DNA of 64,000 nt from Brevundimonas subvibrioides ATCC 15264 (lineage in GTDB: Bacteria > Pseudomonadota > Alphaproteobacteria > Caulobacterales > Caulobacteraceae), in assembly GCF_000144605.1 (NCBI RefSeq), contig NC_014375.1, positions 372,001 to 436,000 on the forward strand, written 5' to 3'. Below are positions 7,557 to 27,935 of this stretch, piece after piece. Every line of letters begins with the position of its first letter. Within the stretch, counting starts at the first letter, position 1. The translations under genes were made by a program, and so were the position numbers. The notes beneath the pieces are model-generated. The model ran no database searches and was not told the DNA's origin. It saw only the letters and a program-made list of their open reading frames with translations.

Positions 7557-7816
7557 GTGACGAGCCAAGGCGTCGTTCTCGGCACGGCCAATCCTGCCAT
7601 TGCGACGGTAGCCCAGGCCTATACCCACACCTTCACGGCCAGGGGCGTGACGGCACAATACAGCTTCGCCGTGACCTCGAGTGCGCTGCTGCAGGGCTCA
7701 CCCTGTCATCGTCGGGAACGCTGTCGGGCACCCCGACCCAGGGTGGCATGTCCAGCGGCTTCACCGACGGCCAGAGCCTCCACGGCCTGCGCATCAGGAT
7801 GAGCAAGCCCTTCTGA
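7557..7816 (+). pseudogene. Remnant of an Ig-repeat autotransporter adhesin
   Basis: Two reading frames together match the large adhesin at 23080-27066. The first frame gives GVVLGTANPAIATV...YSFAVTSSAL, matching its third Ig-type repeat. A one-base deletion near 7692 shifts into a second frame with GLTLSSSGTLSGTPTQGG. This joins directly to GFTDGQSLHGLRIRMSKPF, the last beta strand of the adhesin. All other repeats and the barrel are missing. The homology continues past the stop into the terminator, so this is a deleted paralogue or recombination scar, not a functional gene. Confidence 0.85.
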
Positions 7817-7828
7817 GGCCGACCCGCC

Positions 7829-7860
7829 AACAGGGGTCGCGCCACGGCGCGGCCGCTGTT
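7829..7860 (+). terminator. Hairpin after the adhesin remnant
   Basis: An AACAGGGG...CGCTGTT stem with an inner GCGCC/GGCGC helix. It is almost the same sequence as the hairpin after the intact adhesin (27079-27110), showing that the duplication included the 3' flank. Confidence 0.7.
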
Positions 7861-8062
7861 CCACCCAATGGATCGCCGTCAGGCAACGAGCGCCGGAAAC
7901 CAGTCCCGGATGAGCCGCGTGCGACCCGGCAGATCTGACAGCCGCCCGCGTGCCTGCCTGTGAAAGGTGCGCCTGCGATCCCGTTTCGGTTCGCGAGCGG
8001 ACCGGCGTTTGCGCCGTGGGCCGTCCTCTGGAAGGCCCGCTCTTCCTGAGGCCGAGCGGCTT

Positions 8063-8075
8063 ACCCGAGTTGGGG
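8063..8075. promoter_or_regulatory. 13-bp dyad ACCCG-N3-TGGGG
   Basis: One of the island dyads of the form (A/C)CCC(A/G)-N3-TGGG(G/T). It ends 83 bp before the start of the small gene at 8159. Confidence 0.5.
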
Positions 8076-8158
8076 AGAACCATGGATTGAGGTGAATCAC
8101 GGGCTGCTGTCGAACGCCATCGACCTCCAACGGTCCTGCAATCACTGATCCAGAGCAC

Positions 8159-8413
8159 ATGGCCCGCGGCAAATTCTATGTCTTCAGGAACGGCTCCCGC
8201 TGGAAGATCCGGCACCTCGAAATGGACTACGACTACAGGACGCAGGCCATGGCCATGAAGCATGCAGTCGAGGCCGCCTACAGAACAGGCGAAACGGGTC
8301 ATGCCGCTCAGGTCTTGATCCAGGGTCATGACGGGCAGTGGCAAACCGATTGGACTTACGGCCACGACCGCTATCCCCGGAGGCACTCGGCCCATGCGCA
8401 CGGGCCTAAGTAA
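8159..8413 (+). CDS. Small protein resembling DUF2188
   Basis: An 84-residue basic protein with no signal peptide or membrane segment. The layout resembles DUF2188-type proteins: an N-terminal strand with FYVFRNGSRWKIRHLE, a central helix rich in Ala (TQAMAMKHAVEAAYRTGE), and a final AAQVLIQGHDGQWQTDW segment matching their acidic-Gly-Arg/Gln ending. Function is unknown. The start lacks a strong ribosome-binding site, but the protein-like pattern and the dyad 83 bp upstream favour a real gene. Confidence 0.6.
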   Translation: MARGKFYVFRNGSRWKIRHLEMDYDYRTQAMAMKHAVEAAYRTGETGHAAQVLIQGHDGQWQTDWTYGHDRYPRRHSAHAHGPK

Positions 8414-9353
8414 CGCGCGGGACCGGGAGACAAGACGGCAAATGCGATCCAGCCTTGCGCATTGGCCCGCCCGATCCGCGCCACTTTGACCGATATGCGA
8501 TACTCCGCGTTGCCGGTTCAAAGAGCTGACAGATTTAAGGGTGTCCGAACGCACCCGTCATTCGGCGGACCAAGTCGCAGGTTGGTTCAGAACAAAACAA
8601 ACGGGCCGTGGCGGGCGCGCCGTCGCACGCCAGCTCGTCTCCGCTTGGCCCATGTAGGTCCCGCGTCGATGGGAGACGAGGCGCTTGCGGCCGCTGATGA
8701 AGAACGGCGCGGTTTGTCGACAACAAGAAGATTCAGCCGTGAGAGTTCTCAATATCCGGGTGGCGACGAAATCCTTTTCGGCCTTCATCGCCACTGCATC
8801 AGCCTCCGCCGCATCCGCGCCGAGACCCCAACGGCTCGGGCAGCGGCAGCCGCCTGGATCTGCAGGCACGACGCCTGAAAGCTTATCGCGGTTGACCTGA
8901 CAGCATCGTTTCTGGCCACCGTCGCAAGGCGCGCGGGAGGCATGGCCGTCCTGTCTTGTGAGCCTTGGTTGTCTGGTTCTCCAGGCGGAAGCGCCGCGTC
9001 CATAGCGCCTGCGACCGAGGTCAAAGGGCACTGGCACGCCTGAGAGCTGACGCGGCCGTTCTCCCCAAACTGGGGCCTATCAAACGCCGTTGCTGATCCT
9101 GCCGCGCTACCGCTCTCGGGCTGACCCAATAGCTTCAGCGGCCTGGCGGCCTTTCCTCTGGTTCTCGAATCTCAGGGTGCCGGGCCCGATGGCTCCTGGT
9201 TTCCGCTGCGGCGCACTCGCGTGTCGTAACCGGGTCCGGCTCACTCCCGATTTCGGATCAGGGGACGGCCCCAGCCCCAAGTCCGGCTCGCAAGGGCATG
9301 GACGGGCCGGTCGGCGAGGCCGGCCGCCAATGACATGGATCAGGAGAAAAGCT
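8414..9353. other. Long stretch without a supportable gene
   Basis: Open frames here are short, overlap on both strands and have no recognisable domain or plausible start. The only structured element seen is the 13-bp dyad at 9063-9075. It may be decayed island DNA plus the leader of the receptor gene. Confidence 0.6.
9063..9075. promoter_or_regulatory. 13-bp dyad CCCCA-N3-TGGGG
   Basis: A perfect 5+3+5 inverted repeat upstream of the TonB-dependent receptor. It is 278 bp before the preferred start, farther than at the other island genes. Confidence 0.5.
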
Positions 9354-12326
9354 TTGAGTGACCCCCACCTTCGCCGGCGTCTGCTTGGCACCTCGATGTT
9401 CGCGGGTGCCGCGATCGTCGCCGCTACCGCGCTGATGGCCTCTCCGGTCTCGGCCCAGGACGCACAGGTCGAGGACGACAGCCAGGTTGATGACATCGTC
9501 GTCACCGGCTCGCGCATCACGCGCCAGGACTATCAGGCCACCAGCCCGATCGTGACCGTCAACCAGGAAGATTTCCAGGCGACGGGCTCCGTGACGATCG
9601 ACACCCTGGTCAACGACCTTCCGCAGTTCGTGCCCTCGGTCAATTCGACCTCGAACAATCCCTCGAACGGGGGCCAGGCCAACATCAACCTGCGCGGCCT
9701 GGGCACGCCCCGGACGCTGGTCCTGATGAACGGCCGTCGTGTTGTTCCCTCCAACTCGGACGGTACGGTCGACATCAACCTTCTTCCGACGCCGCTGATC
9801 CAGAACATCGAAGTGATTTCGGGTGGCGCGTCGGCTGCCTATGGCTCGGATGCCCTTGCCGGGGTGGCCAACTTTATCCTGAATGAGAACTTCGAGGGCG
9901 TTCAGTTCGACTCTCAGTATGGGGTGACCGACCGCAGCGACGGCGTGACCGAATCCTATGCCCTGACGCTGGGCGGGGAAATCGCCGAAGGCCGCGGCCA
10001 TCTGGTCCTGTCCCTGGGACATTCCAGCCGCGACCAGGTTTTCAACCGCGATCGCGAGTTCTCTGCGATCTCGGGCCCGTCGGGGACATCGCCGCTGGGC
10101 AGCACGACGTTCGACTCGAACAATCTGCCGAACCTCACTCTGGTCCGCACCTATTTCAACGACGCGACCCTGACCAACACCGGGCAGTTTGGCTTCAACA
10201 ACAATGGGTCGCTGTTCAGCTACGTCCGCACCCGGAATTTCCAGAGCCCGGGCGGCATTGACTACGATGGCTTCGCCAACCCGGGGGTCAGCGACTACGT
10301 CTATAACACCGGGCCGCTCAACCTGAACCAGCTGGGCCTTGACCGGTGGAACGCCTACGTCGGCGGTCGCTACGAAATCAACCGTGGTGCCGAAGTCTAC
10401 GCAAACCTGCTGTTCACCGAATACAACTCGGCCAACGAGCTGGCGGCCAGCCCGGCTGCCGGAAACGTGCCCGCCACGGGCTTCCGCGTGCCGGTCACCA
10501 ACCCTTTCATCACGGCTGACCTGCGCACCCTGCTGAACTCGCGCGCAAACCCGAACGGCTCGTTCCTTCTGAACAAGCGCTTCAATGCCCTCGGGGGTCG
10601 TCGCGCGTCCGAAAACTACAACGTCTATCAAAGCACCGTCGGCGTTCGCGGGGAGCTGGTGGGTCTTCGTGACTGGACCTACGATGTCTACGCCCAGTAT
10701 GGCCGGGTCCTGCGTACGACGCTTCAGAGCGGCAACGTCTCGCGTTCGGCGGTGCAGCGCCTGCTCGACGCGCCGGACGGCGGCAATTCGCTCTGCGCGG
10801 GGGGCTTTGACTGGTACGGCGAAACCGAGCTTTCGGCGGCGTGCGTCAATTTCATCGGACGCACGGCGCAAAACCTGACCGAGCAGGAGCAGTCGGTGGT
10901 CGAAGGCTCGCTGCAGGGCAGCCTGTTCGAACTGCCGGCCGGCGACCTCCGCTTCGCAGGCGGTATCCAGTATCGTGAAGACGTCTTCGAGTTCCGTCCG
11001 GACGCCTCGCTGGCCCAGATCAACCCGATCGTGGTCCGCGCTGACGGCGGTTCCACGGGCGGTTCGGAAATCGCGGGCTTCAACCCGGGACAGCGGCTGG
11101 TCGGCGATACGAACTCTGTCGAGTATTTCCTTGAACTGCTGGTTCCGGTCCTGTCGGACCTGCCGTTCGTCCAGCAGCTTGACCTGAACCTCGGCTACCG
11201 GATCTCGGACTACTCGACGGTCGGCAAAGTCAGCGCCTACAAGGCTGATCTGGACTGGCAGGTTGTCGACTTCCTGCGGATCCGCGGCGGCGTCCAGCGC
11301 GCAGTGCGGGCTCCGTCGGTCGGCGAGCTGTTCGCCCCGATCAACACGAGCTTCCCCAGCGTGGGTGCGGCTTCGGCGACGGGCATTTCCGGCGATCCTT
11401 GCGATACACGTTCAAGCTTCCGCCTCGGCGCAAACGCCGCTCAGGTCCGTGCGCTCTGCCTGACGCAGGGCATCTCCGCCTCGGCGATCGACGCCTATGT
11501 GTTCACCAACAACCAGGTGCCGGGCATTACCGGTGGCAATCCGGACTTGACCGAGGAAACTTCGGACTCGTTCAACGCCGGGCTGGTGATCCAGTCGCCT
11601 TTCGACAATCCCTGGCTCGCAGGCCTGTCGGCCTCGATCGACTACTACAACATCGAAATCCAGGACGTCATCGGCACGATCGGCGCCTCGGCCCAGCTCC
11701 AGGGCTGTTTCAATGCGCGGGGTGAGAACCCGACCTACGATCCGAACAACGGCTACTGCCAGCTGTTCGTCCGCGATGCACTGTCGGGCAACATCAGCCA
11801 GGCCCGCGAGGTCAACGGCAACCTCGCGACCCTGAAGACGTCCGGCATCGATGCCCAGTTCGACTGGAATTTCGGTCTCGCCGACATCGGCGCGCCCGAC
11901 TGGGGCGATCTGAACTTCAACCTCGTGCTGGGCTGGCTCGAGAACCGCGAACGTCAGGATGCTCCGGGAGGTCCGTTCACGAACCGGACCGGCACCATCG
12001 ACAGCGTGTTCGGCAACACCTTCCCTGAGTGGAAGTCGCTGAGCTCGGTCAACTGGGCCTACGGTGCGTTCGGCCTGGGTGCCCGCTGGCGTCACGTCGG
12101 CGAGCTGACCCAGTTCGGTACAGCGATCGAGTTGGGGTCGGCCGACTACTTCGACCTGAACGGCAGCTGGGACCTGACCGACACGGTCAGTCTTCGCTTC
12201 ACGGTGAACAACGTCACCGACGAGCAGCCGATCGTCTACTCTCCGGGCGTTCAGGCCAACACCGACCCGTCGACTTATGACACCCTTGGCCGCCGTTACT
12301 CGGTCGGCCTCACCGCACGCTTCTAG
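9354..12326 (+). CDS. TonB-dependent outer-membrane receptor
   Basis: An outer-membrane gated channel for high-affinity uptake driven by TonB. The signal peptide runs through AATALMASPVSAQ. A TonB-box-like DDIVVTGSRI follows. The plug domain contains INLRGLGTPRTLVLMNGRRV and GGASAAYGSDALAGVANF. The 22-strand barrel ends in YSVGLTARF with a terminal Phe. The substrate cannot be read from sequence. I prefer the TTG at 9354 because AGGAG lies 7 bases before it; an ATG at 9330 in the same frame is the alternative. Longer upstream extensions have no signal-peptide logic. A strong terminator follows. Confidence 0.93.
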   Translation: MSDPHLRRRLLGTSMFAGAAIVAATALMASPVSAQDAQVEDDSQVDDIVVTGSRITRQDYQATSPIVTVNQEDFQATGSVTIDTLVNDLPQFVPSVNSTSNNPSNGGQANINLRGLGTPRTLVLMNGRRVVPSNSDGTVDINLLPTPLIQNIEVISGGASAAYGSDALAGVANFILNENFEGVQFDSQYGVTDRSDGVTESYALTLGGEIAEGRGHLVLSLGHSSRDQVFNRDREFSAISGPSGTSPLGSTTFDSNNLPNLTLVRTYFNDATLTNTGQFGFNNNGSLFSYVRTRNFQSPGGIDYDGFANPGVSDYVYNTGPLNLNQLGLDRWNAYVGGRYEINRGAEVYANLLFTEYNSANELAASPAAGNVPATGFRVPVTNPFITADLRTLLNSRANPNGSFLLNKRFNALGGRRASENYNVYQSTVGVRGELVGLRDWTYDVYAQYGRVLRTTLQSGNVSRSAVQRLLDAPDGGNSLCAGGFDWYGETELSAACVNFIGRTAQNLTEQEQSVVEGSLQGSLFELPAGDLRFAGGIQYREDVFEFRPDASLAQINPIVVRADGGSTGGSEIAGFNPGQRLVGDTNSVEYFLELLVPVLSDLPFVQQLDLNLGYRISDYSTVGKVSAYKADLDWQVVDFLRIRGGVQRAVRAPSVGELFAPINTSFPSVGAASATGISGDPCDTRSSFRLGANAAQVRALCLTQGISASAIDAYVFTNNQVPGITGGNPDLTEETSDSFNAGLVIQSPFDNPWLAGLSASIDYYNIEIQDVIGTIGASAQLQGCFNARGENPTYDPNNGYCQLFVRDALSGNISQAREVNGNLATLKTSGIDAQFDWNFGLADIGAPDWGDLNFNLVLGWLENRERQDAPGGPFTNRTGTIDSVFGNTFPEWKSLSSVNWAYGAFGLGARWRHVGELTQFGTAIELGSADYFDLNGSWDLTDTVSLRFTVNNVTDEQPIVYSPGVQANTDPSTYDTLGRRYSVGLTARF

Positions 12327-12337
12327 GCGTGTCGGAG

Positions 12338-12369
12338 TTCGGCGGGCGCACGGTCGTGCGCCCGCCGAA
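12338..12369 (+). terminator. Strong hairpin after the TonB receptor
   Basis: A long GC-rich stem (TTCGGCGGGCGCAC with GTGCGCCCGCCGAA) begins 11 bases after the receptor stop and is followed by TGGTCCTTTC. It is a good candidate terminator. Confidence 0.8.
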
Positions 12370-12815
12370 TGGTCCTTTCACTGGACGCGACGAGGCGTTC
12401 GAGATCGGAGTCGCGCAGCGGCGTGTCGCTCCGGTAGCAGCCTCCATCACTCAGCGACCCTTGGCTCAGGCGCCGACGGATCCTTACGAAGGCCCGATGA
12501 TCCAGCGTGACCAGGTTCTCGCGGTGATGCTGGCTGGATTGAGGTCGAAGTTTTCGGTGCCACCCGTCCGGTCAGCGGCGGCGTGAGCAGATCCGCCCCA
12601 AGACGCGGAGTCCTGGGCGAGAGGGTCGGCTTGTCGAAGACTTGGAGTGGGCCCCGGCGGGCCGCGGTTCAGAGCAGCCGGCCCGGGCTGCCAGGTCCGT
12701 ACGAACGCCGAGCCGGCACGGCCACGGCACGGCTGCGGCTGAAGGTCTTTTGCGGCCCGAGGTCGTCGATGAGATCAGCCCGAGGACCAGGTCGTGCATG
12801 ATCGGCAATGCGTGC
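12370..12815. other. Gene-free interval between receptor and parA
   Basis: Several short frames exist on both strands but none has a domain, a signal peptide or a convincing start. I see no RNA gene or repeat here. Confidence 0.55.
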
Positions 12816-13490
12816 TCAGGGGCTCACAAACGCCATGCTGTCCGCTGCAGGCAGAACCGGTCTCAGGCCAATCTTGCTGTTGACCAAGGCAAACAGGCGC
12901 TCGAATTCCTGCGGGCATGAGCCGATACCCCAGCCCGATGCGAAGGTCCCCTTTTCCAACCCCTCCTGGTAGACGCGACGGGCGCACAGGACGCCGATCA
13001 GCGGCAAATGGGTGGCTTGCAGCGCTTTCTTCGCCTTTCGGACCTGCGGCGCATCCTCACCAAACCGTTGCGGAGGGGCCTGGTTCAGCACGATCGCGCC
13101 GGGGCGATCAATCTGGTTGAGATGGCCGATGGCCTGGGCGGCCGCCGCGAGGTCGAGGAACGTGGGCCGGGCCACGACGAGCACATAGTCCGAAATGGTC
13201 AAAGCCACGCTGACGTCGGCTTCGGGGTGAGCCGGCGTATCGACGACGAGGATGTCGTACCCCTCGCGCTCGGCGGCCGCCTTGGTGGTGAACAGCTTGC
13301 CCGAGACCGTCGTACGGACGTCGAGGCCCGGCTGCGTGCGAGAATGCAGGTACGCCCAGCTGGAGCGCTGCGGGTCGGAATCGAGAAGAAGAACCCGCTT
13401 CCCGGAGCGCTGCCACGTCAGCGCCAGGGCCACCGCCACGGTGGTTTTCCCGGACCCGCCCTTGCGCGCCATGGTGCAGATCGTTTTCAC
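12816..13490 (-). CDS. Orphan ParA-family ATPase
   Basis: A 224-residue Walker-type ATPase of the ParA/MinD superfamily. The deviant Walker A motif is KGGSGKTTVA at residues 11-20, the A' region is LLLDSDPQRS, and Walker B is DILVVDTPAH. There is no N-terminal DNA-binding extension, and no parB-like gene or centromere-like array nearby. It is therefore unlikely to be the chromosomal ParA. Such small ParAs partition plasmids, maintain integrated elements, or position surface and chemotaxis complexes. Being alone in a tRNA-associated island, it is best read as an element maintenance or positioning protein. Confidence 0.88.
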   Translation of the reverse strand: MKTICTMARKGGSGKTTVAVALALTWQRSGKRVLLLDSDPQRSSWAYLHSRTQPGLDVRTTVSGKLFTTKAAAEREGYDILVVDTPAHPEADVSVALTISDYVLVVARPTFLDLAAAAQAIGHLNQIDRPGAIVLNQAPPQRFGEDAPQVRKAKKALQATHLPLIGVLCARRVYQEGLEKGTFASGWGIGSCPQEFERLFALVNSKIGLRPVLPAADSMAFVSP

Positions 13491-13883
13491 TTGGATGGCC
13501 TCCCCTGAAGTCCACTTTGCCGCACGCGCCGTCGATGGCGATTTCGGAGGCGCACGCGGCGTACTGGTAATGAACTTTTCTGGGCACCGATCGCCAATAT
13601 CCCCATGTCGGGTAAAAAACGGTGTCGGTTTAATCTTGGCGAAACGAAACTATTCTCGTGCCAAAGCAGCCAAAGCAAAAATCAAGTGATCGCTATGAAC
13701 AATAAATGAGCGCATGCCACTTTGTTAACCATGTCTCGAGTGTTTAGGTATATATACCCGATTTGGGTATTCACTAACTTATTCCGGGTTTCGGTCATTC
13801 GACTGGTCCATTCAGTGCAATCCTGACGGTGAGTGTCCAGAATTGTGACACCCCAAGGTGAAGACCCAGAATGGATATACGCA
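13491..13883. other. AT-rich promoter region between parA and the CsgG-like operon
   Basis: No gene seen. Bases 13600-13800 are clearly richer in A and T than the rest of the window. The region contains the extended dyad at 13754-13770 and a variant dyad at 13864-13876. It probably holds divergent promoters. Confidence 0.6.
13754..13770. promoter_or_regulatory. Extended dyad ATACCC-N5-GGGTAT
   Basis: Contains the 13-bp form ACCCG-N3-TGGGT (13756-13768) with arms extended to six perfect bases each side. It ends 115 bp before the preferred CsgG-like start; a weaker copy (ACCCA-N3-TGGAT) lies at 13864-13876. Confidence 0.55.
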
Positions 13884-14729
13884 ATGTCTAGCCCCGCAGG
13901 ATCAGGCCGCGGCCTTCAGCAAAGGCTGGGTGGTCTGACCCTCATGGCCGCCCTGATGGCGGCACCCGGTGCCGCTGGTGGCCAGGCTGCGATGCAGCCC
14001 GGGGCCGTTGCGCCGCAGGCGATCGCTCCGGACACCGTCCGTTGCCTGCAGCAGACCGGTACAGGCACCGGTTCGCGTCCTCGCATCGCCGTTGGGAACA
14101 TCAGGGACTTGAGCGGCCGGGTGAGCCTCGAGTCCGGGGCCTTGCTGCCGCAGGGCGCATCGATGTTCGCGATCTCGGCCCTGCTGGAGATGGGCTATCC
14201 GGTCGTCGAGCGGTTCGACATGGCGATTGCCGAGATCGAGATAAACTACGCCCGCCAGCAGCTGCTGTCCGACACGCCGGAACTGGCAGGGCAGGTGCAG
14301 GACAACTATCGGCGTATCTATCCGGGTCAGATCGCCGGGTCGCGCTTCTATCTGACCGGTGCCCTGACCGAGCTGAATACCGGCGTGTCTTCGCTTTCCG
14401 GGGCGGCGTCCGCCACGGCGGTGTCGTCGGCGATCGCGTCGCTCTCGGCGAGCGGCGGCTATGAGCGGGCCAGCGTCGCCCTGGACCTGAGGCTCGTGGA
14501 CACACTGTCCCAGGAAGTCGTCGGTTCCGCCACGGTTCGGCGGTCTCTTTCCAGCGGCAACCTCTCTGTCGGAGCGATCGGAGCGACGGCCCCCGTGGTC
14601 TCGGGCCAGGTCGCCTATGCCCGGTCATCGGAGGTCCAGTATGCGGTGCGCGGGATGGTGGAGGAGGCCGTCCGGGTTCTGGTGGGCGTTCTGGAGTCCT
14701 GCCCGACCCAGGGGGCCATCACGCCATGA
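13884..14729 (+). CDS. CsgG-like secretion-pore protein 1
   Basis: CsgG-family proteins form an outer-membrane pore that exports curli-type fibre subunits; HfaB of the Caulobacter holdfast is a relative. The CsgG-like core starts at IAVGNIRDLSGRVSLESGAL. It continues through GASMFAISALLEMGYPVVERFD, the FYLTGALTELNTG strand and a Gly/Ser-rich transmembrane-hairpin-like stretch. It ends with the VEEAVRVLVGVLESC helix. The signal peptide has no lipobox Cys, unlike CsgG. I take the ATG at 13884; a GTG at 13833 would extend it by 17 residues. It overlaps the next gene by 4 bases (ATGA). Confidence 0.8.
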   Translation: MSSPAGSGRGLQQRLGGLTLMAALMAAPGAAGGQAAMQPGAVAPQAIAPDTVRCLQQTGTGTGSRPRIAVGNIRDLSGRVSLESGALLPQGASMFAISALLEMGYPVVERFDMAIAEIEINYARQQLLSDTPELAGQVQDNYRRIYPGQIAGSRFYLTGALTELNTGVSSLSGAASATAVSSAIASLSASGGYERASVALDLRLVDTLSQEVVGSATVRRSLSSGNLSVGAIGATAPVVSGQVAYARSSEVQYAVRGMVEEAVRVLVGVLESCPTQGAITP

Positions 14730-15760
14730 TACGCCCTGGATCAATGTCCGCGATCGGTCTGGTTGCCCTGCTGCTGGCAGGCTGCGCCACGTCGCCGTCG
14801 CTGACCACCTTCGAACGGGAATTCGCCCGGACCGGCAGGCAGACCGAAAGTCTGGCCCAGTGTCTCGCTGCATCGGCCGAGGCGACACGTCCGATCCTCG
14901 CCGTCGGATCGGTCGCAGACCTGACCGGACGCCAGACCTTCGCGACCGGGCGGGTCGTGACCCAGGGGGCCGGGCTGTTTCTGTCAGCCGATCTCGCCAC
15001 CTTCGGTATCCGCCTCGCAGAGCGGCAGGACACCTCGGTCCTCGACAGCGAGACGAGGCTGCTGGTGTCCGACACGACGCCCGGCGAGACGGGCCGTATC
15101 GCTGGCAGCCGGTACTATGTCTCCGGCGCGATCGTGACGGCTGATCCCGCTGATGCGGCCGGCCTGCAGGGCCAGGCCATCGGCGGGGCCGGCGTGACCC
15201 TGAGCAGCACGGAGATGCGGCGCCGGGTCGTCGTCTCGATCCGGATCATCGACAGCCGCTCGCTGCTCATCGCGGCGGTGGGGACATACGAACGTATCGC
15301 CGTGTCGACCGATCAGAGCCTTTCGATCTCGGATCCGTCGTCGCTGGATGTGCTGAGGTTCGACGCGCGCCGCAGCGAGAACGACGGCCTCGACCTCGCG
15401 ACGCGGCTGGCCATCCGGGAAGCCGCCCGGGATATTGCCGTCTGGCTGTCCGGGTCGGACGCCTGTGGCGGCTACAGTGCCGGCTTCCGGCCGGCCTCGC
15501 GGGAAGGGACACCTGTGACGCCCGTGGCGACGATCGCCGAACTCGTCCCGGCAGCGCCGTCGCCCACGGGGGATCCGGCCGAAAGGCTCGAGCAACTTGG
15601 GGCGGTTCCGGCACCCCGGCATTGGGAAGGACTGGGGGGGCGGACGCTGCGTCCCGGACCGTGGGTTCTGGAACGGCCGGCGACCCGGGCAGGCGCGCGC
15701 GTGCCCCGGATTGTGCTAGGCGCTGTCGGCGAGAATGCCGGAGCACCACGCGGCACCTGA
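14726..15760 (+). CDS. CsgG-like outer-membrane lipoprotein 2 (HfaB-like)
   Basis: A 344-residue lipoprotein with lipobox LLLAGC and the modified Cys at residue 20. Its middle is a second CsgG-type domain parallel to the preceding gene: ILAVGSVADLTGRQTFATG, VVTQGAGLFLSADLATFGIRLAERQD, and SRYYVSGAIVTADPADAAG. After the domain (near residue 250) comes a Pro/Ala-rich tail that CsgG lacks. Overlapping start and stop with the upstream gene imply translational coupling. Two non-identical CsgG-like subunits could build a hetero-oligomeric pore. The family call is from motif layout, not a search. Confidence 0.8.
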   Translation: MIRPGSMSAIGLVALLLAGCATSPSLTTFEREFARTGRQTESLAQCLAASAEATRPILAVGSVADLTGRQTFATGRVVTQGAGLFLSADLATFGIRLAERQDTSVLDSETRLLVSDTTPGETGRIAGSRYYVSGAIVTADPADAAGLQGQAIGGAGVTLSSTEMRRRVVVSIRIIDSRSLLIAAVGTYERIAVSTDQSLSISDPSSLDVLRFDARRSENDGLDLATRLAIREAARDIAVWLSGSDACGGYSAGFRPASREGTPVTPVATIAELVPAAPSPTGDPAERLEQLGAVPAPRHWEGLGGRTLRPGPWVLERPATRAGARVPRIVLGAVGENAGAPRGT

Positions 15761-15809
15761 TCGCCCCCGGCTCCGCAACTTCGGGCATCGACTCGGTCCG
15801 GAGCAGAAT

Positions 15810-15822
15810 GCCCATTTTGAGT
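15810..15822. promoter_or_regulatory. Variant 13-bp dyad GCCCA-N3-TGAGT
   Basis: An imperfect member of the island dyad set, ending 96 bp before the start of the low-complexity secreted protein. That spacing is nearly the same as at 18843 and 23080. Confidence 0.35.
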
Positions 15823-15918
15823 AATACAGATTCGTATGTCAGGGGAATTCCATTACAGCGCGCTGTCCGTCTAACTAGTCGAGAAGCTAGGCATCCCGCC
15901 TTCAAGGAACCCCTTCAC

Positions 15919-16473
15919 ATGCGTATGTATGCTGCTGCTCTGATTGCCGCTGTATCTGTCTCTACCCCGGCAATGGCTTCGCAATATCAGACCTCGCCGG
16001 CTCCGGCTCAGTATAACGGCGGATCAAACGTTTCTGTTTTCTCCAACAATCACTACGCCTCGCCCACTGCCGTTATCGCCGGCGCGACGCAGGTCGCGGT
16101 CGGTACGACCGTCCAGGCCCTGAACCAGGTTTCCGCCTCGGCGCTCAATAACGGCTCCGCCGCCGTCAACACCGGTTCGGTCGCCCTGGTCGCGCCGATC
16201 AACGCCCTGAACGGTTCGGTCAGCGCCCTCAACGGTTCGCTGTCGGCCACCACGGGTAATCTGGCCGTGACCACGGGCTCGATCGCCGCGGCTGTGTCGC
16301 CCACGCTCAACACGACGATCGCTCCGGTCATCTCGACCCAGGGCCTGGGGACTGCCGCCGGTGCCATCGGCGTGGTCGGCAACGGCGCCGTGGGTGGCAC
16401 CCTCGGGCTGCTCCGGAACCTGAACGTCAATGTCCTGAGCGGAAACCGCCCCGCCTCCGGCAAGAAGTACTAG
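15919..16473 (+). CDS. Low-complexity secreted protein, candidate fibre subunit
   Basis: A 184-residue protein with a signal peptide (ending STPAMAS) and an AAGGAAC ribosome-binding site. The mature part is nearly free of charged residues and rich in Ala, Asn, Gly, Ser, Thr and Val. It has short tandem units such as NGSVSALNGSLSATTGNLAV that repeat about every seven residues. No domain is recognised. Position after two CsgG-like genes, export signal and Asn/Gly/Ser-rich repeats make it a plausible exported amyloid or fibre subunit analogous to CsgA or HfaA, though no sequence identity is claimed. It has its own strong terminator. Confidence 0.8.
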   Translation: MRMYAAALIAAVSVSTPAMASQYQTSPAPAQYNGGSNVSVFSNNHYASPTAVIAGATQVAVGTTVQALNQVSASALNNGSAAVNTGSVALVAPINALNGSVSALNGSLSATTGNLAVTTGSIAAAVSPTLNTTIAPVISTQGLGTAAGAIGVVGNGAVGGTLGLLRNLNVNVLSGNRPASGKKY

Positions 16474-16481
16474 GCCCTTCC

Positions 16482-16517
16482 GTCTCCTGATCGCGAGGGA
16501 ACTTGCGATCAGGAGAC
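16482..16517 (+). terminator. Terminator of the CsgG-like cluster
   Basis: A perfect 13-bp stem (GTCTCCTGATCGC and GCGATCAGGAGAC) 8 bases after the stop of the low-complexity protein gene. Confidence 0.85.
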
Positions 16518-16626
16518 CCTGGCAGGGTCGCTACCCAATGGGCGCGCGACGCGCACCTTTTTCCAGAGAGCTCCCGTCCTGATCCGGCCAGGTGGCCGAT
16601 CGGGACGACAGGGCCCGGCCTCGATC

Positions 16627-17196
16627 TCAGGCCACGGGGTCGATCGCGGCCCGGACTTCGGGCTCGTTGGCACGGGGCTGGAGAAAACTTTCCCAGTTCC
16701 CACCTGCCGTATCGACCGATTTCTCGGCGATCGTCGTATGGATGCGCGTCGCCAGTTCCGCCATCTTCGGCGCGATGGATTTCACGCAGTCGCGAAGTCC
16801 CTCCCGCTTCATGGTTTCCGAGCTCACGAAGAACGAACGGGAGCCCTGCCGCTCCAGCAGCTTCTGCTCGACCAGTTCATGGACGTGACGGCGGACCGTT
16901 TCGTAGGGCAGGGCCAGATACTCGGAGATGCTGAGTACCGATACGGCACGCCTCAGGTCGTCCGGGAAGATGCCTCCTTCGGCTTCCGCTCGCAGCTGAT
17001 TGCGATGGTTCAGGTGGCCAACGCTCGATCGGGCGGCACCGTAGAAGACCATCATCCGCGTGACGTCGCCGCCGAACGGTGCGGCGCAGATGGGAATGAA
17101 GCGTAGCAGTGCGTCTATCGTCTGAGCGTACACGTAACTGTCAAGCTCGGTTCGATCTGCCGTATCGGGCTCTGCGGTTGGGGCAATCATCATCAT
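16627..17196 (-). CDS. Winged-helix transcriptional regulator
   Basis: A 189-residue cytosolic protein. Its central region has a winged helix-turn-helix: VSVLSISEYLALPYETVRRH (recognition helix), then VHELVEQKLLERQGSRSFFV (wing). This resembles MarR/GntR-type readers of promoter DNA. The flanking N-terminal helices (YAQTIDALLRFIPICAAPFG) may form a dimer or ligand domain of no family I recognise. It is divergent from the AbgT-type transporter with 36 bp between start codons, so control of that transporter is the simplest reading. Confidence 0.75.
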   Translation of the reverse strand: MMMIAPTAEPDTADRTELDSYVYAQTIDALLRFIPICAAPFGGDVTRMMVFYGAARSSVGHLNHRNQLRAEAEGGIFPDDLRRAVSVLSISEYLALPYETVRRHVHELVEQKLLERQGSRSFFVSSETMKREGLRDCVKSIAPKMAELATRIHTTIAEKSVDTAGGNWESFLQPRANEPEVRAAIDPVA

Positions 17197-17232
17197 CGAC
17201 GTTACGTATATCAGCGGTCTGGTAAACCTCTC

Positions 17233-18678
17233 GTGAAGGGCACGATCGGCATAGGCGCGGCCACGGTCGCCGTGGTCGCGGCCCTGTCCGTCGTGGGTGC
17301 ATCACAGGGCTGGACGTTCGGCAACGACAGCGCGGACGTTGTGCAGAGCCTGCTCGTCCCGGACTCCATCAGGGTTTTCCTGACGGAAGCCCCTTCAATC
17401 GCGATCGGCTATCCTCCGTTCGGGACCATCCTGCTCTGCAGCCTCGGCGCCGGGGTCATGGCGGCGTCCGGATTGCTTCACGCCATCGCTGATTTCGTCG
17501 CTCGAAAGGTGCCGGGCGTCCTGATCACACCCGCGGTCTTCCTGATGGGACTGATCTGTCATCAGGTCTCCGACGCCCTCTATGTCGTCTACCTGCCGCT
17601 ATGTGGCATGATCTTCCAGACCCGGGGACGCAATCCGGTGCTCGGGGTCATGCTGGGGTTCGCCGCCTTCTCCGGGGCGCTTTATGCCAGTCTTTTCCCG
17701 GGCCTGCAGGACATCGTCCTGCTGGGGATCACGGAACAGGCCGCGCGAGCGGCTGGCATTGCCGGGACCATTTCCCCCATGGCCAACATGTGGTTCTCAT
17801 CCGCCAACGCCGTGGCGCTTACTCTGGTCGCGTGGGCCCTGGTGGACCGCGTGGTCCCTCGCTTCGCCGGTGCCTCCGACGAGGCGACCGCAGCGCCGGC
17901 CACGACCCGGGCCTTCGGCGACGGAGGGCTGCCGGATTCCCGCGGGCTGCTTGCGGCGGGTGCGGCTAGCCTTCTGGTTCTCGCAGGGTTCGCCCTCCTC
18001 GCCCTTGTTCCGGACGTCAGCCCGTTGCGGACGGATACGGCCGCCGGCATGGCCCGCTTCGAGCCGCTTTATAAATCCGGGGCCGCCATCATCACGCTGA
18101 CCTCGGCCGCCGCCGGCACGGCGTACGGGTTCGCCTCCGGCCGCTGGCGTAAACTCCACCGCGTCGCCCAGGCGGTCGAAGCGTCGATGCGCGACCTCAC
18201 GCCGTTCCTCCTGATGGCCATCTTCATCGCCTTCGTGGTCAAGGCTATCGATGTCTCCAACCTCGGGCGCCTCGCCGCGCACCATCTGGCGGAACTGGTC
18301 AGGGCCAGCGACTGGCATGAGAGCGCCATCGCTGCCTTGCTGATGGCCGTCACGGCCCTGGCGGATTTCCTGATGTTCTCCGCATCGGCCAAATGGACGG
18401 TCATCGCGCCGACCGTCCTGCCCGCCCTGGATCAGTCGGGGGTTTCTCCTGCCGTCGCGACCGCCGCCTTCCGCGTCGGCGATGCCGTCGTCAACGTCGT
18501 CAACCCGCTCCAGCCAGCCGCCGTTTATGCTCTGATCAGCGCCACCGCCTGGGACCGATCCCTGTCCATGGCCCGTCTGATGGGTCGAATGGCCGCCTTC
18601 GCCGCGTCATTCTTTGTAGTCGGATTGACGATGCTCATGATCTGGTCCGCGCTTGGTCTGCCCTTCGGACCGGGTTGA
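17233..18678 (+). CDS. AbgT-family transporter
   Basis: An inner-membrane protein of 481 residues with about 11-13 hydrophobic segments. The AbgT-family signature is near the C-terminus: FLMFSASAKWTVIAPTVLP followed by AFRVGDAVVNVVNPL, matching the SASAKW and RxGDSxTN motifs of AbgT and MtrF. Known members import p-aminobenzoyl-glutamate or export antimetabolites such as sulfonamides. Which applies here is unknown. The start is GTG. An upstream divergent winged-helix regulator probably controls it. Confidence 0.88.
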   Translation: MKGTIGIGAATVAVVAALSVVGASQGWTFGNDSADVVQSLLVPDSIRVFLTEAPSIAIGYPPFGTILLCSLGAGVMAASGLLHAIADFVARKVPGVLITPAVFLMGLICHQVSDALYVVYLPLCGMIFQTRGRNPVLGVMLGFAAFSGALYASLFPGLQDIVLLGITEQAARAAGIAGTISPMANMWFSSANAVALTLVAWALVDRVVPRFAGASDEATAAPATTRAFGDGGLPDSRGLLAAGAASLLVLAGFALLALVPDVSPLRTDTAAGMARFEPLYKSGAAIITLTSAAAGTAYGFASGRWRKLHRVAQAVEASMRDLTPFLLMAIFIAFVVKAIDVSNLGRLAAHHLAELVRASDWHESAIAALLMAVTALADFLMFSASAKWTVIAPTVLPALDQSGVSPAVATAAFRVGDAVVNVVNPLQPAAVYALISATAWDRSLSMARLMGRMAAFAASFFVVGLTMLMIWSALGLPFGPG

Positions 18679-18735
18679 TAGGTAGGTACTTTTAAGTATC
18701 CAGCGCCGGTTATTGGCCGGTCTCTTTATCCATCT

Positions 18736-18748
18736 CCCCAAAATGGGT
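18736..18748. promoter_or_regulatory. 13-bp dyad CCCCA-N3-TGGGT
   Basis: Member of the island dyad family, ending 94 bp before the first gene of the TadE/TadG operon. Confidence 0.5.
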
Positions 18749-18842
18749 AAATTGAACCGAGCATAAAGCAACGCGAGCCCCTGGATTCACGTGTCGTCAA
18801 TGGCCCCTTGAGAAACCAGGGTATCGCCAGTCGACTGCGGAT

Positions 18843-19154
18843 GTGCCTGTGCTCTCGTCTTTAGAAAAGATCCTTTTTCATGCCGACCACCTCCTCGCGG
18901 AGGCTCGAGCCGCCGGCGCTGGACCGGACGAAATCGACGACATGCTGGGTGAGATTACCCATCTGGAACGTCAGGCCCTCCGCTGCCGGATCACCAATCC
19001 CGCAGGCGCGGCGGCCAAGCTGAGGATTCTGTCGCGCCACCTTGCCGGCGACTGTGATCCGGTGGTCAGGGAGGCGGTCTTCGATCTCGCCCTCTGGGCC
19101 ACCGGCACGGAAACGGACTCGACCGACGACGATTATCTGGACGTGGCGGCGTGA
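18843..19154 (+). CDS. Hypothetical helical protein, first gene of the TadE/TadG operon
   Basis: A 103-residue acidic protein with no signal peptide, predicted mostly helical (LEKILFHADHLLAEARAAG; IDDMLGEITHLERQALRC). No family recognised. It starts at GTG and its stop overlaps the GTG start of the TadE-like gene, so the proteins are translationally coupled. A cytosolic accessory role for the pilus-like proteins is possible. Confidence 0.65.
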   Translation: MPVLSSLEKILFHADHLLAEARAAGAGPDEIDDMLGEITHLERQALRCRITNPAGAAAKLRILSRHLAGDCDPVVREAVFDLALWATGTETDSTDDDYLDVAA

Positions 19155-19588
19155 CCGGGACCGGGATCTTCCCGGGCCTTTGCGGTGCCCGTGGCCCGTC
19201 GCCGAGAGAGGGCTCGGCTGCCGTCGAGTTCGCCCTGGTCGCGCCGGTCTTCATCGCGCTGCTGATGGGCGTTGCGGTATACGGCGGCTGGTTCTGGCTC
19301 GCCAACAGCGCGCAATCGCTGGCGACCGAAGCCGCCAGAGCCGCTATCGGGGGTCTGGACACCCCGGAGCGTGTGGCCTTGGCCAGCGAGTTCACCGCGG
19401 CCAACACGGCGGGTCTCGGTTTCGACCCCAAGACCGTGTCGACGGCCGTCGAGGCCACCGACACCCAGATCAACGTGACGATCTCGGTCGATATCCGGAC
19501 TCATCCGCTGATGGCCCTGCGGGGCTTTCTGCCGGCACCGCCCGTCACCATCACGCGCACCGCCGTGGTCCGCACGGGGGGCTTCTGA
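19151..19588 (+). CDS. TadE-like pseudopilin
   Basis: TadE-type proteins are minor pseudopilins of the Flp/Tad type IVc pilus machinery, anchored in the inner membrane. The protein has the hallmark N-terminal sequence REGSAAVEFALVAPVFIALL, in which the Glu of AAVEFALV is the conserved +5-like residue. A long hydrophobic helix and a short beta-type periplasmic part (NVTISVDIRTHPLMAL) follow. It sits between a coupled hypothetical gene and a TadG-like gene, overlapping both. No Tad motor or secretin genes are in the window. Confidence 0.88.
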   Translation: MTGTGIFPGLCGARGPSPREGSAAVEFALVAPVFIALLMGVAVYGGWFWLANSAQSLATEAARAAIGGLDTPERVALASEFTAANTAGLGFDPKTVSTAVEATDTQINVTISVDIRTHPLMALRGFLPAPPVTITRTAVVRTGGF

Positions 19589-21219
19589 TGTTGCGCCCGT
19601 CGGGTTTCCGTCAAGACACACGGGGCGGCATCGCCGTGATGGCGGCCGCGGCCGGTAGCCTGATCTGCGCGCTGGCGGCCATCAGCATCGACGTCGCTTC
19701 TGTAGCCCTGTCCGGTCGCACGCTTCAGGGGGTCGCGGACCTCGCCGCCATGTCGGCGGCGGCGAATCTCGACGTGGCGGACCAGGCCGCGCAAGCGACT
19801 GTGTCGGCCAATCTGCGCGCCGCCACCGTAAAGACCGAACTCGGCGCCTATGTCGCCGACCCGGACATCGCGCCGTCCGGCCGCTTCAGCGTCCAGGCGG
19901 ACTCCGCCAACGCCGCGCGGGTCACGGTCACCGCCACCGCACCGCTTTTCTTCGGCAAGATCGTTATCGGCAAGGATGAGGTCGTCCAGGTGCGCTCGGC
20001 GGTGGCTGCGGCCCGGATCGAACCGCCGCGGGCCATGTTCTCGATCGGGTCGCGTCTCGCAGCGGTCGATGGCGGGGTGGCGAACGCCGTCATCGGCGGG
20101 CTGACGGGCAGTTCCGTGTCGCTGACCGTGATGGACTACGACGCCCTGGCCTCCGCGCGCATCAACCTGCTCGGATTCTTCGACGCCCTGGCCACCGAGA
20201 CGGGGGTCACGGTCGGCGACTACGAGACCCTTGTAAACACCACCGTCGATGCCGGGAGGATCGTGAAGGTTCTGGAGAGCTTGAGTACCGGCCAGGATGC
20301 GGCGGCGCTCAGGAAACTCCGGACGCCCGCCGCCAATGTCCGCGTCCGGATTGGTGACGTCATCGGGATCGAGGCCGATGCCGGGCGCGGTCTGGCGGAG
20401 GGGCTGGATGCCTCGGTCACCGCGCTTGATCTCGTCATGGCCACGCTCGAGACCGGGGGCAGTCGACAGGTGAAACTGGACCTCGCGGCCAACGCCCAGC
20501 TGGCCGGCGCGCAGGTCTTCCTGGCCATCGGCGAACGCCCCAATCGATCGCCCTGGCTGTCGGTGACGAAGACCGGCCAGCCGATCATCCGGACGGCGCA
20601 AGCCAGGGTGTTCATCAGGGCCAGAACAGCGAAAGCCCTGTCGGGCCTGGCCCAGGTCGATGTGCCGATCCTGCTCGAGCTGGCACCGGGCGAAGCCTAT
20701 CTCCAGGCCATCGATTGCAAGACAGGGTCGGTCGATCTGGCCGTCAAGCCCGGCTTGCTGACCGCTCAGATCGGCGAAGTGGACGAACGCGATCTGAATG
20801 ACTTCAAGACCGCCCTGAAACCGCGGGAGGCCACGCTGGTGTCGGCGCTGGGGCTGCTGTCGGTCAAGGCCAGTGGCAAGGTCCAGGCCACAGATGTCCG
20901 TCATCAGACAACCCGCTTTTCGGAGGCCGACATCGCGGCGGCGAGAAAACGAACGGTGACGTCCAGCAGTCTGGTCCAGGGCGCCATCAGCAGTCTTCTC
21001 GGCAGCGCCAGCCTGAACATCGAGGCGCTGGGTCTGGGTCTCAATGTCTCGAGACTCACCAGCGCCCTCAACCTGCTGCTGACGCCCATCGGCCCTCTAC
21101 TCGACAGCACCCTGAACACCGTGCTCGGCGTTGCGGGCCTCAAGCTGGGCCAGGCCGACGTCACGGTTCACGGTCTGACCTGCCCCTCATCCGCGACACG
21201 CCCCGTGCTGGTCCGCTGA
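19588..21219 (+). CDS. TadG-like membrane-anchored protein
   Basis: A 543-residue protein starting with an ATG that overlaps the TadE stop (TGATG). The TadG-type N-terminus is DTRGGIAVMAAAAGSLICAL, with RGG before the hydrophobic helix, followed by SIDVASVALSGRTLQGVADLAA. A long extracytoplasmic region (FSVQADSANAARVTVTATAPLFF and beyond) lacks a recognisable von Willebrand domain and metal-binding DxSxS motif. It could tether or shape pili or another envelope structure. Open frame upstream of 19588 is not coding. Confidence 0.85.
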   Translation: MLRPSGFRQDTRGGIAVMAAAAGSLICALAAISIDVASVALSGRTLQGVADLAAMSAAANLDVADQAAQATVSANLRAATVKTELGAYVADPDIAPSGRFSVQADSANAARVTVTATAPLFFGKIVIGKDEVVQVRSAVAAARIEPPRAMFSIGSRLAAVDGGVANAVIGGLTGSSVSLTVMDYDALASARINLLGFFDALATETGVTVGDYETLVNTTVDAGRIVKVLESLSTGQDAAALRKLRTPAANVRVRIGDVIGIEADAGRGLAEGLDASVTALDLVMATLETGGSRQVKLDLAANAQLAGAQVFLAIGERPNRSPWLSVTKTGQPIIRTAQARVFIRARTAKALSGLAQVDVPILLELAPGEAYLQAIDCKTGSVDLAVKPGLLTAQIGEVDERDLNDFKTALKPREATLVSALGLLSVKASGKVQATDVRHQTTRFSEADIAAARKRTVTSSSLVQGAISSLLGSASLNIEALGLGLNVSRLTSALNLLLTPIGPLLDSTLNTVLGVAGLKLGQADVTVHGLTCPSSATRPVLVR

Positions 21220-21572
21220 CCCGGCCGGGGCGATCTACCCAGAACGAGCATGAGCCCCGCCACGCAAGGGCCGGGCTGCGGTAAACCGTGCCCGCTGCCC
21301 ACCAGCGCTGACGATCCGGCGGCCATCCATGCGGGACCCAACCCCCGCGCGCCGCCGGGTCGTCACACCGGAACGCCAGATCCGGTTTCTTCGGGGCGAT
21401 CCCGTCTGGACGCGTCCGGATCTGCCCGGGCCGGTATCCGGAACACCGTCTTCGTTTCGGGGTCGGCCCGCTTGCCTTTTTCCTCGATCAGGATCCACCC
21501 TCGTCGCCCTTTCGGCCATGTGAGGGGTTGTCACGCGCGGTCTGGAGCAAGATACCCGGGTGGGGGAAACGA
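21220..21572. other. Gene-free interval before the HTH-TPR gene
   Basis: No domain-bearing frame is visible. The end of the interval holds GATACCCGGGTGGGGG, which partly resembles the island dyad and doubles as the ribosome-binding region of the next gene. Confidence 0.5.
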
Positions 21573-22928
21573 ATGAGCGACGGTCGGTTGAAGGGCTGGA
21601 AGCAGATCGCCGAGCATCTCGGCGTTTCTCCCGGCACGGCGATGCGCTGGTCCCGTCGACCCGGCTTCCCGGTTATTCGCGCGGGCGAGCACGGGTCTGT
21701 CTATGCGTTGCCGCAAGCGCTGGAGGCGTGGCTGGCCAATGCCGACGAGCGGCCTGACGATCCGGATCTCAATCCCGATGCCGAGGCTCCGGATGTTGCC
21801 GACAGGCCCGGGATCGAAGACCGGACCTGGCTGAGCGGACCGCTGCGGGCCGTCCGGGCCCGGCCGCGCGCTGTTCTGGGCGTGGCCGCGGGGCTTGCGA
21901 TGGTGGCGATCCTCGCTGTGGCCGTGTCGCGGATCGAGACCGGGGGCCCCGCGCGCCCGGTCGCAGACGCGGCCCTGACCGCCAGCTATCTCGAGGCCCG
22001 GGCGGACTGGGCCGAGCGCAGCCCCGCCAGCCTCGCCCGCGCGACCGAGAAATTCCGGCTCATGATCAGCCAGCATCCGGACTACCATCCGGCCTTCACC
22101 GGCCTGGCCGACGCCTACATCCTGTCGTGCGAGTTCGACGACGCGGACCGCGACGCCGCCTTCGCCGCCGCACGGGCGGCCGTCACGACCGCGCTCGCGC
22201 TCGCACCGGGCGATGCGGACGCCAACCGGGTGGCCGGCTTTCTCGAATACTGGACCCACCGCGACCTCGCCCGCGCGCGGCCCTATTTCGAGCGCGCCGC
22301 CCGCGCGCGGCCCGACGACTATCTGATCCATCTCTGGTACGGCAACGCGCTGATCGATGGCGGCCGGGTCAGCGAGGGCGCCGAACATCTGCGGCGCGCC
22401 GTGATCCTCGCGCCCGACTCCCCGGCCGTCCTGACCGACTATGCGATCGCCCTGTGGCAGGCCGGGGATCGACCGGCGGCGCTGCAACGTCTGGCGGCCG
22501 TCGAGCGCCGCTTTCCCACCCATTCCGCTGCGCCCGGCGCGGCCGCGCTGTTCCACCTGCAGGCGGGCGACGTCGCCGCCTATCTCGCCGCATCGCGCCG
22601 CTGGGCGTCGCTGATCCGGGCGACGCCGCAGCTCGAACGCCTTGATCGCGAACAGGCGGCCTACGACGCCGGAGGCGCGCCGGCGGCCCTGAAGCTGATG
22701 AGCACAGCCCCGGCTCTGGAGACGTCTTTCTGGCACGGCGGCAACCTGCCGGCCGCGATCGCGGCCGCGAGGCTGGGCGATCGGAGCGCCCTTCTGGAGC
22801 GGCTCAGGGATGTGTCCGTCCGCCGGGAGAACTGGCGCGATCTCGACTTCCCGGCGGGGGCATTCGAGCCGTGGCGCGACGATCCCGAACTCAAGCCGCT
22901 GCTGGACGCGGTGTTCGGCCGGGCCTGA
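21573..22928 (+). CDS. Membrane-bound HTH-TPR protein, candidate regulator
   Basis: A 451-residue protein with three parts. Residues 5-60 form an excisionase/MerR-like helix-turn-helix (WKQIAEHLGVSPGTAMRWSR, then VYALPQALEAWL). Residues 90-112 are one membrane helix (VLGVAAGLAMVAILAVAVS). The rest is a periplasmic tetratricopeptide-repeat domain (HPAFTGLADAYILSC, RAVILAPDSPAVLTDYAIAL). The layout resembles CadC-type one-component sensors that bind DNA while anchored in the membrane. I start at 21573, where GGGGGAAAC precedes the ATG. It lies just upstream of the autotransporter adhesin and may control it. Confidence 0.82.
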   Translation: MSDGRLKGWKQIAEHLGVSPGTAMRWSRRPGFPVIRAGEHGSVYALPQALEAWLANADERPDDPDLNPDAEAPDVADRPGIEDRTWLSGPLRAVRARPRAVLGVAAGLAMVAILAVAVSRIETGGPARPVADAALTASYLEARADWAERSPASLARATEKFRLMISQHPDYHPAFTGLADAYILSCEFDDADRDAAFAAARAAVTTALALAPGDADANRVAGFLEYWTHRDLARARPYFERAARARPDDYLIHLWYGNALIDGGRVSEGAEHLRRAVILAPDSPAVLTDYAIALWQAGDRPAALQRLAAVERRFPTHSAAPGAAALFHLQAGDVAAYLAASRRWASLIRATPQLERLDREQAAYDAGGAPAALKLMSTAPALETSFWHGGNLPAAIAAARLGDRSALLERLRDVSVRRENWRDLDFPAGAFEPWRDDPELKPLLDAVFGRA

Positions 22929-22932
22929 CGCC

Positions 22933-22972
22933 CTCTCAAATCCTATCAAATGCTATCATCTGCGATCAAAAC
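22933..22972 (+). repeat. Four tandem 10-bp repeats upstream of the adhesin
   Basis: Consecutive units CTCTCAAATC, CTATCAAATG, CTATCATCTG and CGATCAAAAC share TCA at the same phase and lie immediately before the CCCCA-N3-TGGGG dyad. The 10-bp period puts all four on one face of the DNA helix, as expected for a row of protein-binding sites. Confidence 0.65.
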
Positions 22973-22984
22973 CCCAGAATGGGG
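22972..22984. promoter_or_regulatory. 13-bp dyad CCCCA-N3-TGGGG
   Basis: A perfect 5+3+5 inverted repeat ending 95 bp before the adhesin start codon and abutting the four 10-bp repeats. Confidence 0.6.
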
Positions 22985-23079
22985 AGTTTGTTCATTGATC
23001 GCATCCCCCTCCGTCACGCAACGGCACGGCCGATTATGGGCCGACGCACAGGGCGTCGTTCCCCGCCGGAAATGCCGCC

Positions 23080-27180: not shown

Positions 27181-27594
27181 ATGGACCGTGTCACGAAGGG
27201 GTTCGGAGCATTCCACAGGCTACGTCTGACGCGGTTCATCCTGGCCGCGGCGGCCGTCTGGGTCTCGGTGTGGGTGGGCATCTGGGCCTGTGCGAGCCAT
27301 CGCACGGCCGTCATCGATCGATCGATCTCTGCGGAGCGCACGTCAGCGCTGACGCTGATCTCGAGCCTCGCGCCACCGACGATCGACCCGCTGAACGCGT
27401 CCAAGAGAGTGCGTCTGACGACCATCGGCAACCGCATCGACCGCGACCTGGTCCGGCGCGACGCCACGCACCGCTGGGCGGACCGTGCGCAAGGGTGGGG
27501 TCCCCTCGGGCTGGCGCTGATCCTGTCCCTGATCCTTCCGGCGGTGTGGCTCCGCGGCCGTTCCGGACGACGCGAGTGGTTTCGACATCCCTAG
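27181..27594 (+). CDS. Small two-helix membrane protein
   Basis: A 137-residue protein with hydrophobic helices near residues 19-37 (FILAAAAVWVSVWVGIWAC) and 106-122 (GPLGLALILSLILPAVW), separated by a soluble loop of about 65 residues. No family recognised. It lies between the autotransporter terminator and the TPS operon, reading in the same direction. The membrane pattern supports it, but there is no clear ribosome-binding site. Confidence 0.5.
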   Translation: MDRVTKGFGAFHRLRLTRFILAAAAVWVSVWVGIWACASHRTAVIDRSISAERTSALTLISSLAPPTIDPLNASKRVRLTTIGNRIDRDLVRRDATHRWADRAQGWGPLGLALILSLILPAVWLRGRSGRREWFRHP

Positions 27595-27935
27595 GCTGGA
27601 GCGCCTTTCAGAGGGCGAGACCACCCGCTTCCACGCCGATGTCGATCACGACCGAGCGGCGACCGCTTCCTGGACAGCGGCAGGATAGGGGACCTGGCGA
27701 CCCGGACCGATGGCCTGGCCGGTACCGGCCATCCCGTGGCGTTGTTAACGCACGGTTTTTCGCGCATCCGGTGTTTCCCGGCTGCACGACGGGATTGCGG
27801 CGTTATGTGACTTGTCCGGGCCTCCTTCAGGCGGCTAGGCTTAACCACGATACGGCCGAAGGGGGGGACCCGGCGGCCACTGCGTCCTGTAACCCATATG
27901 CCGTGACGTCGTCGTCGGCTTGCTGGAGCCGTCGG
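27595..27935 (+). other. Leader region of the TPS operon
   Basis: No gene seen. The frame of the TPS exoprotein is open through here by chance of GC content but has no signal peptide upstream of 27936. No copy of the 13-bp dyad was found in this leader. Confidence 0.5.

Follow-up and report, generated by a model that had tools for sequence, protein, structure and literature searches.

Do the adhesion genes of an island in Brevundimonas subvibrioides ATCC 15264 share an operator, and which of the proteins encoded among them would read it? The question arose from a first-pass annotation of a 64,000-nucleotide window (positions 372001-436000 of the 3,445,263 bp genome; coordinates below are those of the window unless a contig or locus is named), in which a 13-bp dyad had been seen upstream of several genes, at an equal distance from three of them. 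A private regulon had been proposed, with a winged-helix protein and an HTH-TPR membrane protein as its island-encoded candidate regulators. According to the analysis presented here, the dyad is likely to serve as operator for the winged-helix protein (16627-17196, minus strand; 189 amino acids), a regulator with a predicted MarR-like fold which resembles RtrC of Caulobacter.

The dyad, written as MCCCRNNNTGGGK, was present at 8063, 9063, 13756, 18736 and 22972, as first placed, and two further exact matches which had not been listed were found at 11354, within the gene of a TonB-dependent receptor, and at 13601 on the minus strand. The window thus contains MCCCRNNNTGGGK at seven places (11 strand matches; shuffled sequences gave a mean of 2.7 and at most 8), six of which are intergenic in the gene table of the window. 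The nearly equal gaps between the end of the dyad and the start codon were confirmed, being 96 bp (15810 to 15919), 94 bp (18736 to 18843) and 95 bp (22972 to 23080); another possible start follows in frame 6 bp after the GTG at 18843. Equal spacing is not a rule, however, as the remaining intergenic sites end 278 bp (9063), 115 bp (13756), 110 bp (13601) and 83 bp (8063) before a start, and fixed spacing was dropped as a defining feature for this reason.

A scan of the whole genome with the literal consensus gave 62 strand matches (57 places), compared with 87 for the reversed control, and the consensus was discarded as a genome-wide motif since it had fewer matches than its control. For the 50 places that fall outside the window, genes were predicted with a home-made gene caller in the surrounding 2 kb, which put 43 places inside genes and seven between them. 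Thus, the consensus is background-like in number, yet its intergenic copies cluster in the window. The form first written down is too loose, and T-N-C-Y-C-A-NNN-T-G-R-G-N-A is nearer to the actual one. The pattern CYCAWWWTGRG occurs at three places in the whole genome (its reversed control at one), and two of these, 15811 and 18737, correspond to the dyads at 15810 and 18736, with the winged-helix gene between them. The third place (G000:C1:83443) is inside a gene which, judged from its translation, resembles a phage terminase.

Homologues of the winged-helix protein were collected with a profile of five members (A3), including the window protein. The search of the order resulted in 57 matches in 33 of 398 genomes, 32 of these in the same family as B. 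subvibrioides. The homologue set consisted of 54 distinct open frames from genomes other than its own, taken from 30 loci of the search and from further stretches, L125, L126 and L132 among them; the matches G169, G206:C83 and G346:C1:238 kb were left out. With a matrix built from six window sites, 19 of the 54 homologues had a site of at least 12 bits in the 450 bp that precede the matched stretch, whereas tail probabilities predict this for about 1-3 per cent of stretches. The other 35 of the 54 stretches have no site of this strength, which counts against the proposed reading. Among the sites found in the 19 are CCCCAAAATGGGG and TACCCAAACTGGGCA, located 70-89 bp before the likely starts.

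The same dyad was also obtained de novo, from 46 non-redundant 300-bp upstream stretches from which the own genome was excluded, although orthologous upstream stretches among the homologues are not independent. When palindromes of all 256 tetramers at 13 gap lengths were counted, CCCA-N3-TGGG had the largest excess, being present in 10 of 46 stretches (0.34 expected); this ranking is by excess over expectation, and by raw count some dyad came to at least 10 in 18 of 300 shuffles. Palindromic EM on the same stretches gave TTgCCCAaatTGGGcAA as the best motif, in about 16 of 46, with a near-tie between its likelihood of 78.3 and that of a GC-rich, coding-like motif present in 45 of the 46 (76.2). 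The proposal of an island-encoded regulator is therefore upheld as far as the winged-helix protein is concerned, since the dyad is found upstream of its homologues, and not for the HTH-TPR protein, for which there was no such link. Nor is the operator private to the island, as it turns up along with a regulator family elsewhere in the bacterial family.

The EM motif TTgCCCAaatTGGGcAA provided a matrix independent of the window sites. Its five best sites in the window were those at 15810, 18736, 13756, 9063 and 22972, all of them on the initial list, and the sixth-best, at 59184, scored 9.3 bits. Four of the five best end 94-115 bp before start codons. The dyad at 15810-15822, previously regarded as a weaker variant, was the best site of the window with 23.1 bits, followed by that at 18736-18748 with 21.9 bits. 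Sites of at least 21.9 bits are expected 0.04-0.31 times in the whole genome, depending on the background GC, so that only these two are beyond chance singly; a small operator set is real at least at 15810 and 18736. The dyads at 13756-13768 (14.3 bits), 9063-9075 (11.9 bits) and 22972-22984 (10.5 bits) are not beyond chance alone, as 0.2-0.9, 0.8-2.9 and 1.6-5.3 equally good sites, respectively, are expected by chance in 64 kb.

Several of the other members listed at first are weak. The variant at 13864-13876, directly before the CsgG start, scored 8.4 bits, and the dyad at 8063-8075, upstream of a DUF2188-like ORF (8159-8413), 6.5 bits. The two added matches are also weak: the dyad at 13601-13613 (minus strand), upstream of a ParA-like ATPase gene, is exact to the written consensus and scored 7.1 bits, and that at 11354 in the interior of the TonB receptor gene 5.1 bits. 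The ORF 8159-8413 codes for 84 amino acids, fewer than the 100 required in the ORF list, and its DUF2188 match is exactly at the Pfam cut-off (22.0 bits). Elsewhere in the genome of B. subvibrioides, the independent matrix found sites of 14.3 bits (L087) and 13.6 bits (L091), which count against the proposed reading. In 424 kb of other fetched loci, a background inflated by own-genome stretches picked because they match, there were ten matches of at least 12 bits, one of at least 16 bits and none of at least 18 bits.

The occurrence of the dyad in the family followed that of the regulator in part. The pattern TNCYCAWWWTGRGNA was found on average 1.59 times per genome in the family genomes with a homologue (n = 32) and 0.39 times in those without (n = 61; p 1.6e-5), while its reversed control gave 0.16 in both groups. 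The contrast was also seen outside the own genus (p 0.022) and within g25 (p 0.024, 9 vs 7 genomes), and was not significant within the own genus (4 vs 42, p 0.32) or g24 (18 vs 3, p 0.36). Among the 398 genomes of the order, 211 match TNCYCAWWWTGRGNA, some outside the family up to nine times. Genomes without a homologue thus have the pattern too, and the contrast may partly reflect phylogeny.

Winged-helix homologues are found in two members of the same genus, G012 and G041, and in a Caulobacter MAG (L132). In G012 a dyad of 20.4 bits (window matrix; L125:8663) lies upstream of a response-regulator gene, 81 bp from its ATG; the winged-helix homologue comes next in the same operon. On the other side of this dyad a second response-regulator gene starts in the opposite direction, with two Tad-like (TadE/G-like) genes behind it, one above and one just below the Pfam cut-off. 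The strong site of G041 (L126:256; window matrix, 18.0 bits) is found before an amidohydrolase gene, some 8 kb away from the homologue, which counts against the proposed reading. In the MAG, sites of 12.6 and 10.7 bits are present in the intergenic stretch roughly 0.5 kb before the start of the homologue. The weaker homologues in G033 and G008 (L129, L130) had no site of at least 11 bits with the window matrix; EM placed the site TTTCTCAAAATGAGATG before the G008 homologue gene (L144).

The genes behind dyads in relatives were inspected in 20 stretches, 17 chosen by a strict pattern match and three as homologue loci, with a Pfam search of ten of their proteins. They included clear MCP genes (L202, L204, L206), an MCP gene cut by the contig end and below the cut-off (L211), XRE genes (L201, L212) and a SpoIIE-phosphatase gene about 425 bp behind the dyad, followed by a DUF6272 gene (L213). 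Others, e.g. GTP cyclohydrolase (L207) and pentapeptide repeats (L215), have no adhesion theme. In some double-domain homologues of about 334-380 codons (L151, L159, L162, L176, L178), a strong dyad is found not upstream but at the stop codon or shortly behind it. The genome G269 has seven winged-helix matches, among them neighbouring copies, three within 1.7 kb in C29 (L166) and two in C21 (L163).

The winged-helix protein of the window had no Pfam hit above cut-off, and its NCBIfam hits were all far below cut-off. The predicted fold is MarR/MepR-like, with MepR (3ECO) among the closest structures. The protein differs from the MarR/MepR family in its MarR_2 score (Pfam), 15.6 bits compared with the curated cut-off of 27, and in its best Foldseek E-value, 0.0099, there being no Foldseek match at 0.001 or better. 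The half-sites TTRCYCA / TGRGYAA would each take up one recognition helix (around LPYETVRRHV) of the protein, a putative dimer, and once bound to the dyad, presumably in response to a signal, it would switch the island adhesion genes together. With short leaders the sites would be upstream of -35, where RtrC is reported to activate (PMC9648850), and by this analogy the winged-helix protein would more likely be an activator that acts from beyond the promoter on its upstream side. No dyad of at least 9 bits was found within 450 bp upstream of its own gene. This counts against the proposed reading, and the protein is for the same reason called RtrC-like here and not an RtrC orthologue.

RtrC (CCNA_00551) is a 146-amino-acid regulator of surface attachment in Caulobacter crescentus. 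In its description (McLaughlin et al. 2022, PMC9648850), it is reported to have no recognised domain family, a predicted MarR-like fold with MepR (3ECO) as the closest structure, and relatives largely limited to Caulobacterales and Rhodospirillales. The same paper (PMC9648850) reports 113 ChIP peaks, pseudo-palindromic sites, binding of RtrC to its own promoter and chemoreceptor genes among its targets. The window protein is similar in lacking a Pfam or NCBIfam family and in its predicted MarR-like fold with MepR (3ECO) near the top. Further likenesses are the dyads before 19 of its 54 homologues, which correspond to the binding of RtrC to its own promoter, and the chemoreceptor genes behind dyads in relatives (L202, L204 and L206). 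The pseudo-palindrome that is linked computationally to its family is a putative likeness, judged from the description of the RtrC motif and not from its letters. Compared with RtrC, the window protein is longer (189 vs 146 amino acids), has its clear sites in one island and not at 113 peaks, is without a dyad at its own gene, and has TadE/G-like, fibre-like and CsgG-like genes as neighbours. A protein of a relative with the length of RtrC (146 amino acids; L154:1459-1899) is a homologue of the window protein (29 %, E 3e-14; 98.3 % in hhalign with A3), and proteins related to it are named 'hypothetical protein [Caulobacter sp.]'. Among the titles listed from the open-licence PMC literature, none was on RtrC outside Caulobacter.

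The XRE gene beside metK, which we take to be cdxA from its place beside metK, offered a further comparison. In G250 a 21.1-bit dyad precedes the matched stretch of the XRE gene before metK by 250 bp. The overall result was mixed: at the XRE gene beside metK, the EM matrix gave a site of at least 9 bits in 3 of 21 genomes and the window matrix in 7 of 21, and a site was present at one (L242) of nine other XRE loci, which lack metK. The gene cdxA is an XRE-family gene reported to be activated by RtrC (PMC10688885); the XRE/metK counts neither prove nor exclude that the RtrC motif is the dyad.

Another RtrC-like protein encoded in the genome, such as the paralogue at G000:C1:696974 (an open frame of 334 amino acids, with 29 % identity over 73 residues), could be the reader of the dyad, the island protein then having other targets. 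A paralogue is indeed present in the own genome, and several subfamilies elsewhere accompany near-identical dyads. However, the two best dyad sites flank the island winged-helix gene itself, and the paralogue (L182) has no site of at least 9 bits in 450 bp upstream of the matched stretch, making this reading unlikely.

It is very improbable that the dyad reader is the HTH-TPR membrane protein (21573-22928, plus strand; TPR hits), even though it is encoded in the island, adjoins the site at 22972 and has a weak N-terminal match to HTH_17 (21.5 bits, cut-off 27). The loci of its nearest homologues, G002 (55 % identity) and G058 (37 %), have no good dyad, the best scoring 10.0 and 9.4 bits, respectively, and beside its gene there is a different candidate site, consisting of the 10-bp-spaced repeats CTATCAAATG, CTATCATCTG and CGATCAAAAC at 22943-22972, between the HTH-TPR gene and that of the autotransporter. 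These repeats are a candidate site for the HTH-TPR protein. The stretches downstream of its homologues in G002 (L111) and G058 (L003) were compared, and CTATCAAATGC recurs at the equivalent place in G002, where it is followed by a long open frame whose start resembles a signal peptide. The sequence CTATCAAACG also follows a dyad, at 9077.

The least credible explanation is that chance matches in GC-rich DNA, or pieces of other elements, account for the dyads, since the background frequency of the literal consensus in the genome, the weak members at 8063, 13601 and 11354, which fit chance, and the three moderate sites, which are not above chance one by one, have to be set against the independent matrix, the genomic rarity of 15810 and 18736, and the placement of these two on either side of the regulator gene.

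With the winged-helix protein as the likely reader of the dyad, its most likely and best-supported targets are the two neighbours that flank its gene, namely the fibre gene and the TadE/G operon. The fibre-like protein gene (15919-16473, plus strand), behind the dyad at 15810, has no Pfam family. The operon behind the dyad at 18736 (18843-21219, plus strand; Pfam TadE, Tad_C) consists of three genes, 18843-19154, TadE (19151-19588) and Tad_C (19588-21219). The first of these had matches in 2 of 150 genomes, its own and one weak (E 7e-4). The operon of two CsgG-family genes (13884-15760, plus strand; Pfam CsgG) is probably also a target, with the dyad at 13756 upstream of its ATG at 13884. Near the CsgG orthologues of 12 congeners (L032-L043) no exact match to the dyad was found, the best site having 11.7 bits.

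Possible targets are the autotransporter with Ig-like repeats (23080-27066, plus strand; Pfam Autotransporter and He_PIG), which has an ATG start and the dyad at 22972, and the TonB-dependent receptor (9354-12326, plus strand; identified with Pfam), with the dyad at 9063. What remains of a second autotransporter gene was found at 7568-7866, where 112 bp are 92 % identical to the 3' end of the gene 23080-27066 and 173 bp are 78 % identical to one of its repeats. Beside the island, 27270-36131 codes for a large exported protein of 2953 amino acids with a TPS secretion domain, FG-GAP and MBG repeats.

For the clustered fibre-like, TadE/G-like, CsgG-like and autotransporter genes, the analysis thus spells out an operator in full and names a candidate regulator. 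It also suggests that RtrC, described only recently, belongs to a larger family whose operator is conserved, in which case such regulons could be predictable from sequence across the group. More tentatively, and with somewhat less than even probability, an RtrC-like superfamily, with single- and double-domain members and up to seven matches per genome, may read one near-invariant dyad across the family, the adhesion island carrying its own copy of the regulator together with operators. If so, the adhesins of the island would either plug into the attachment network of the host or be insulated from it.
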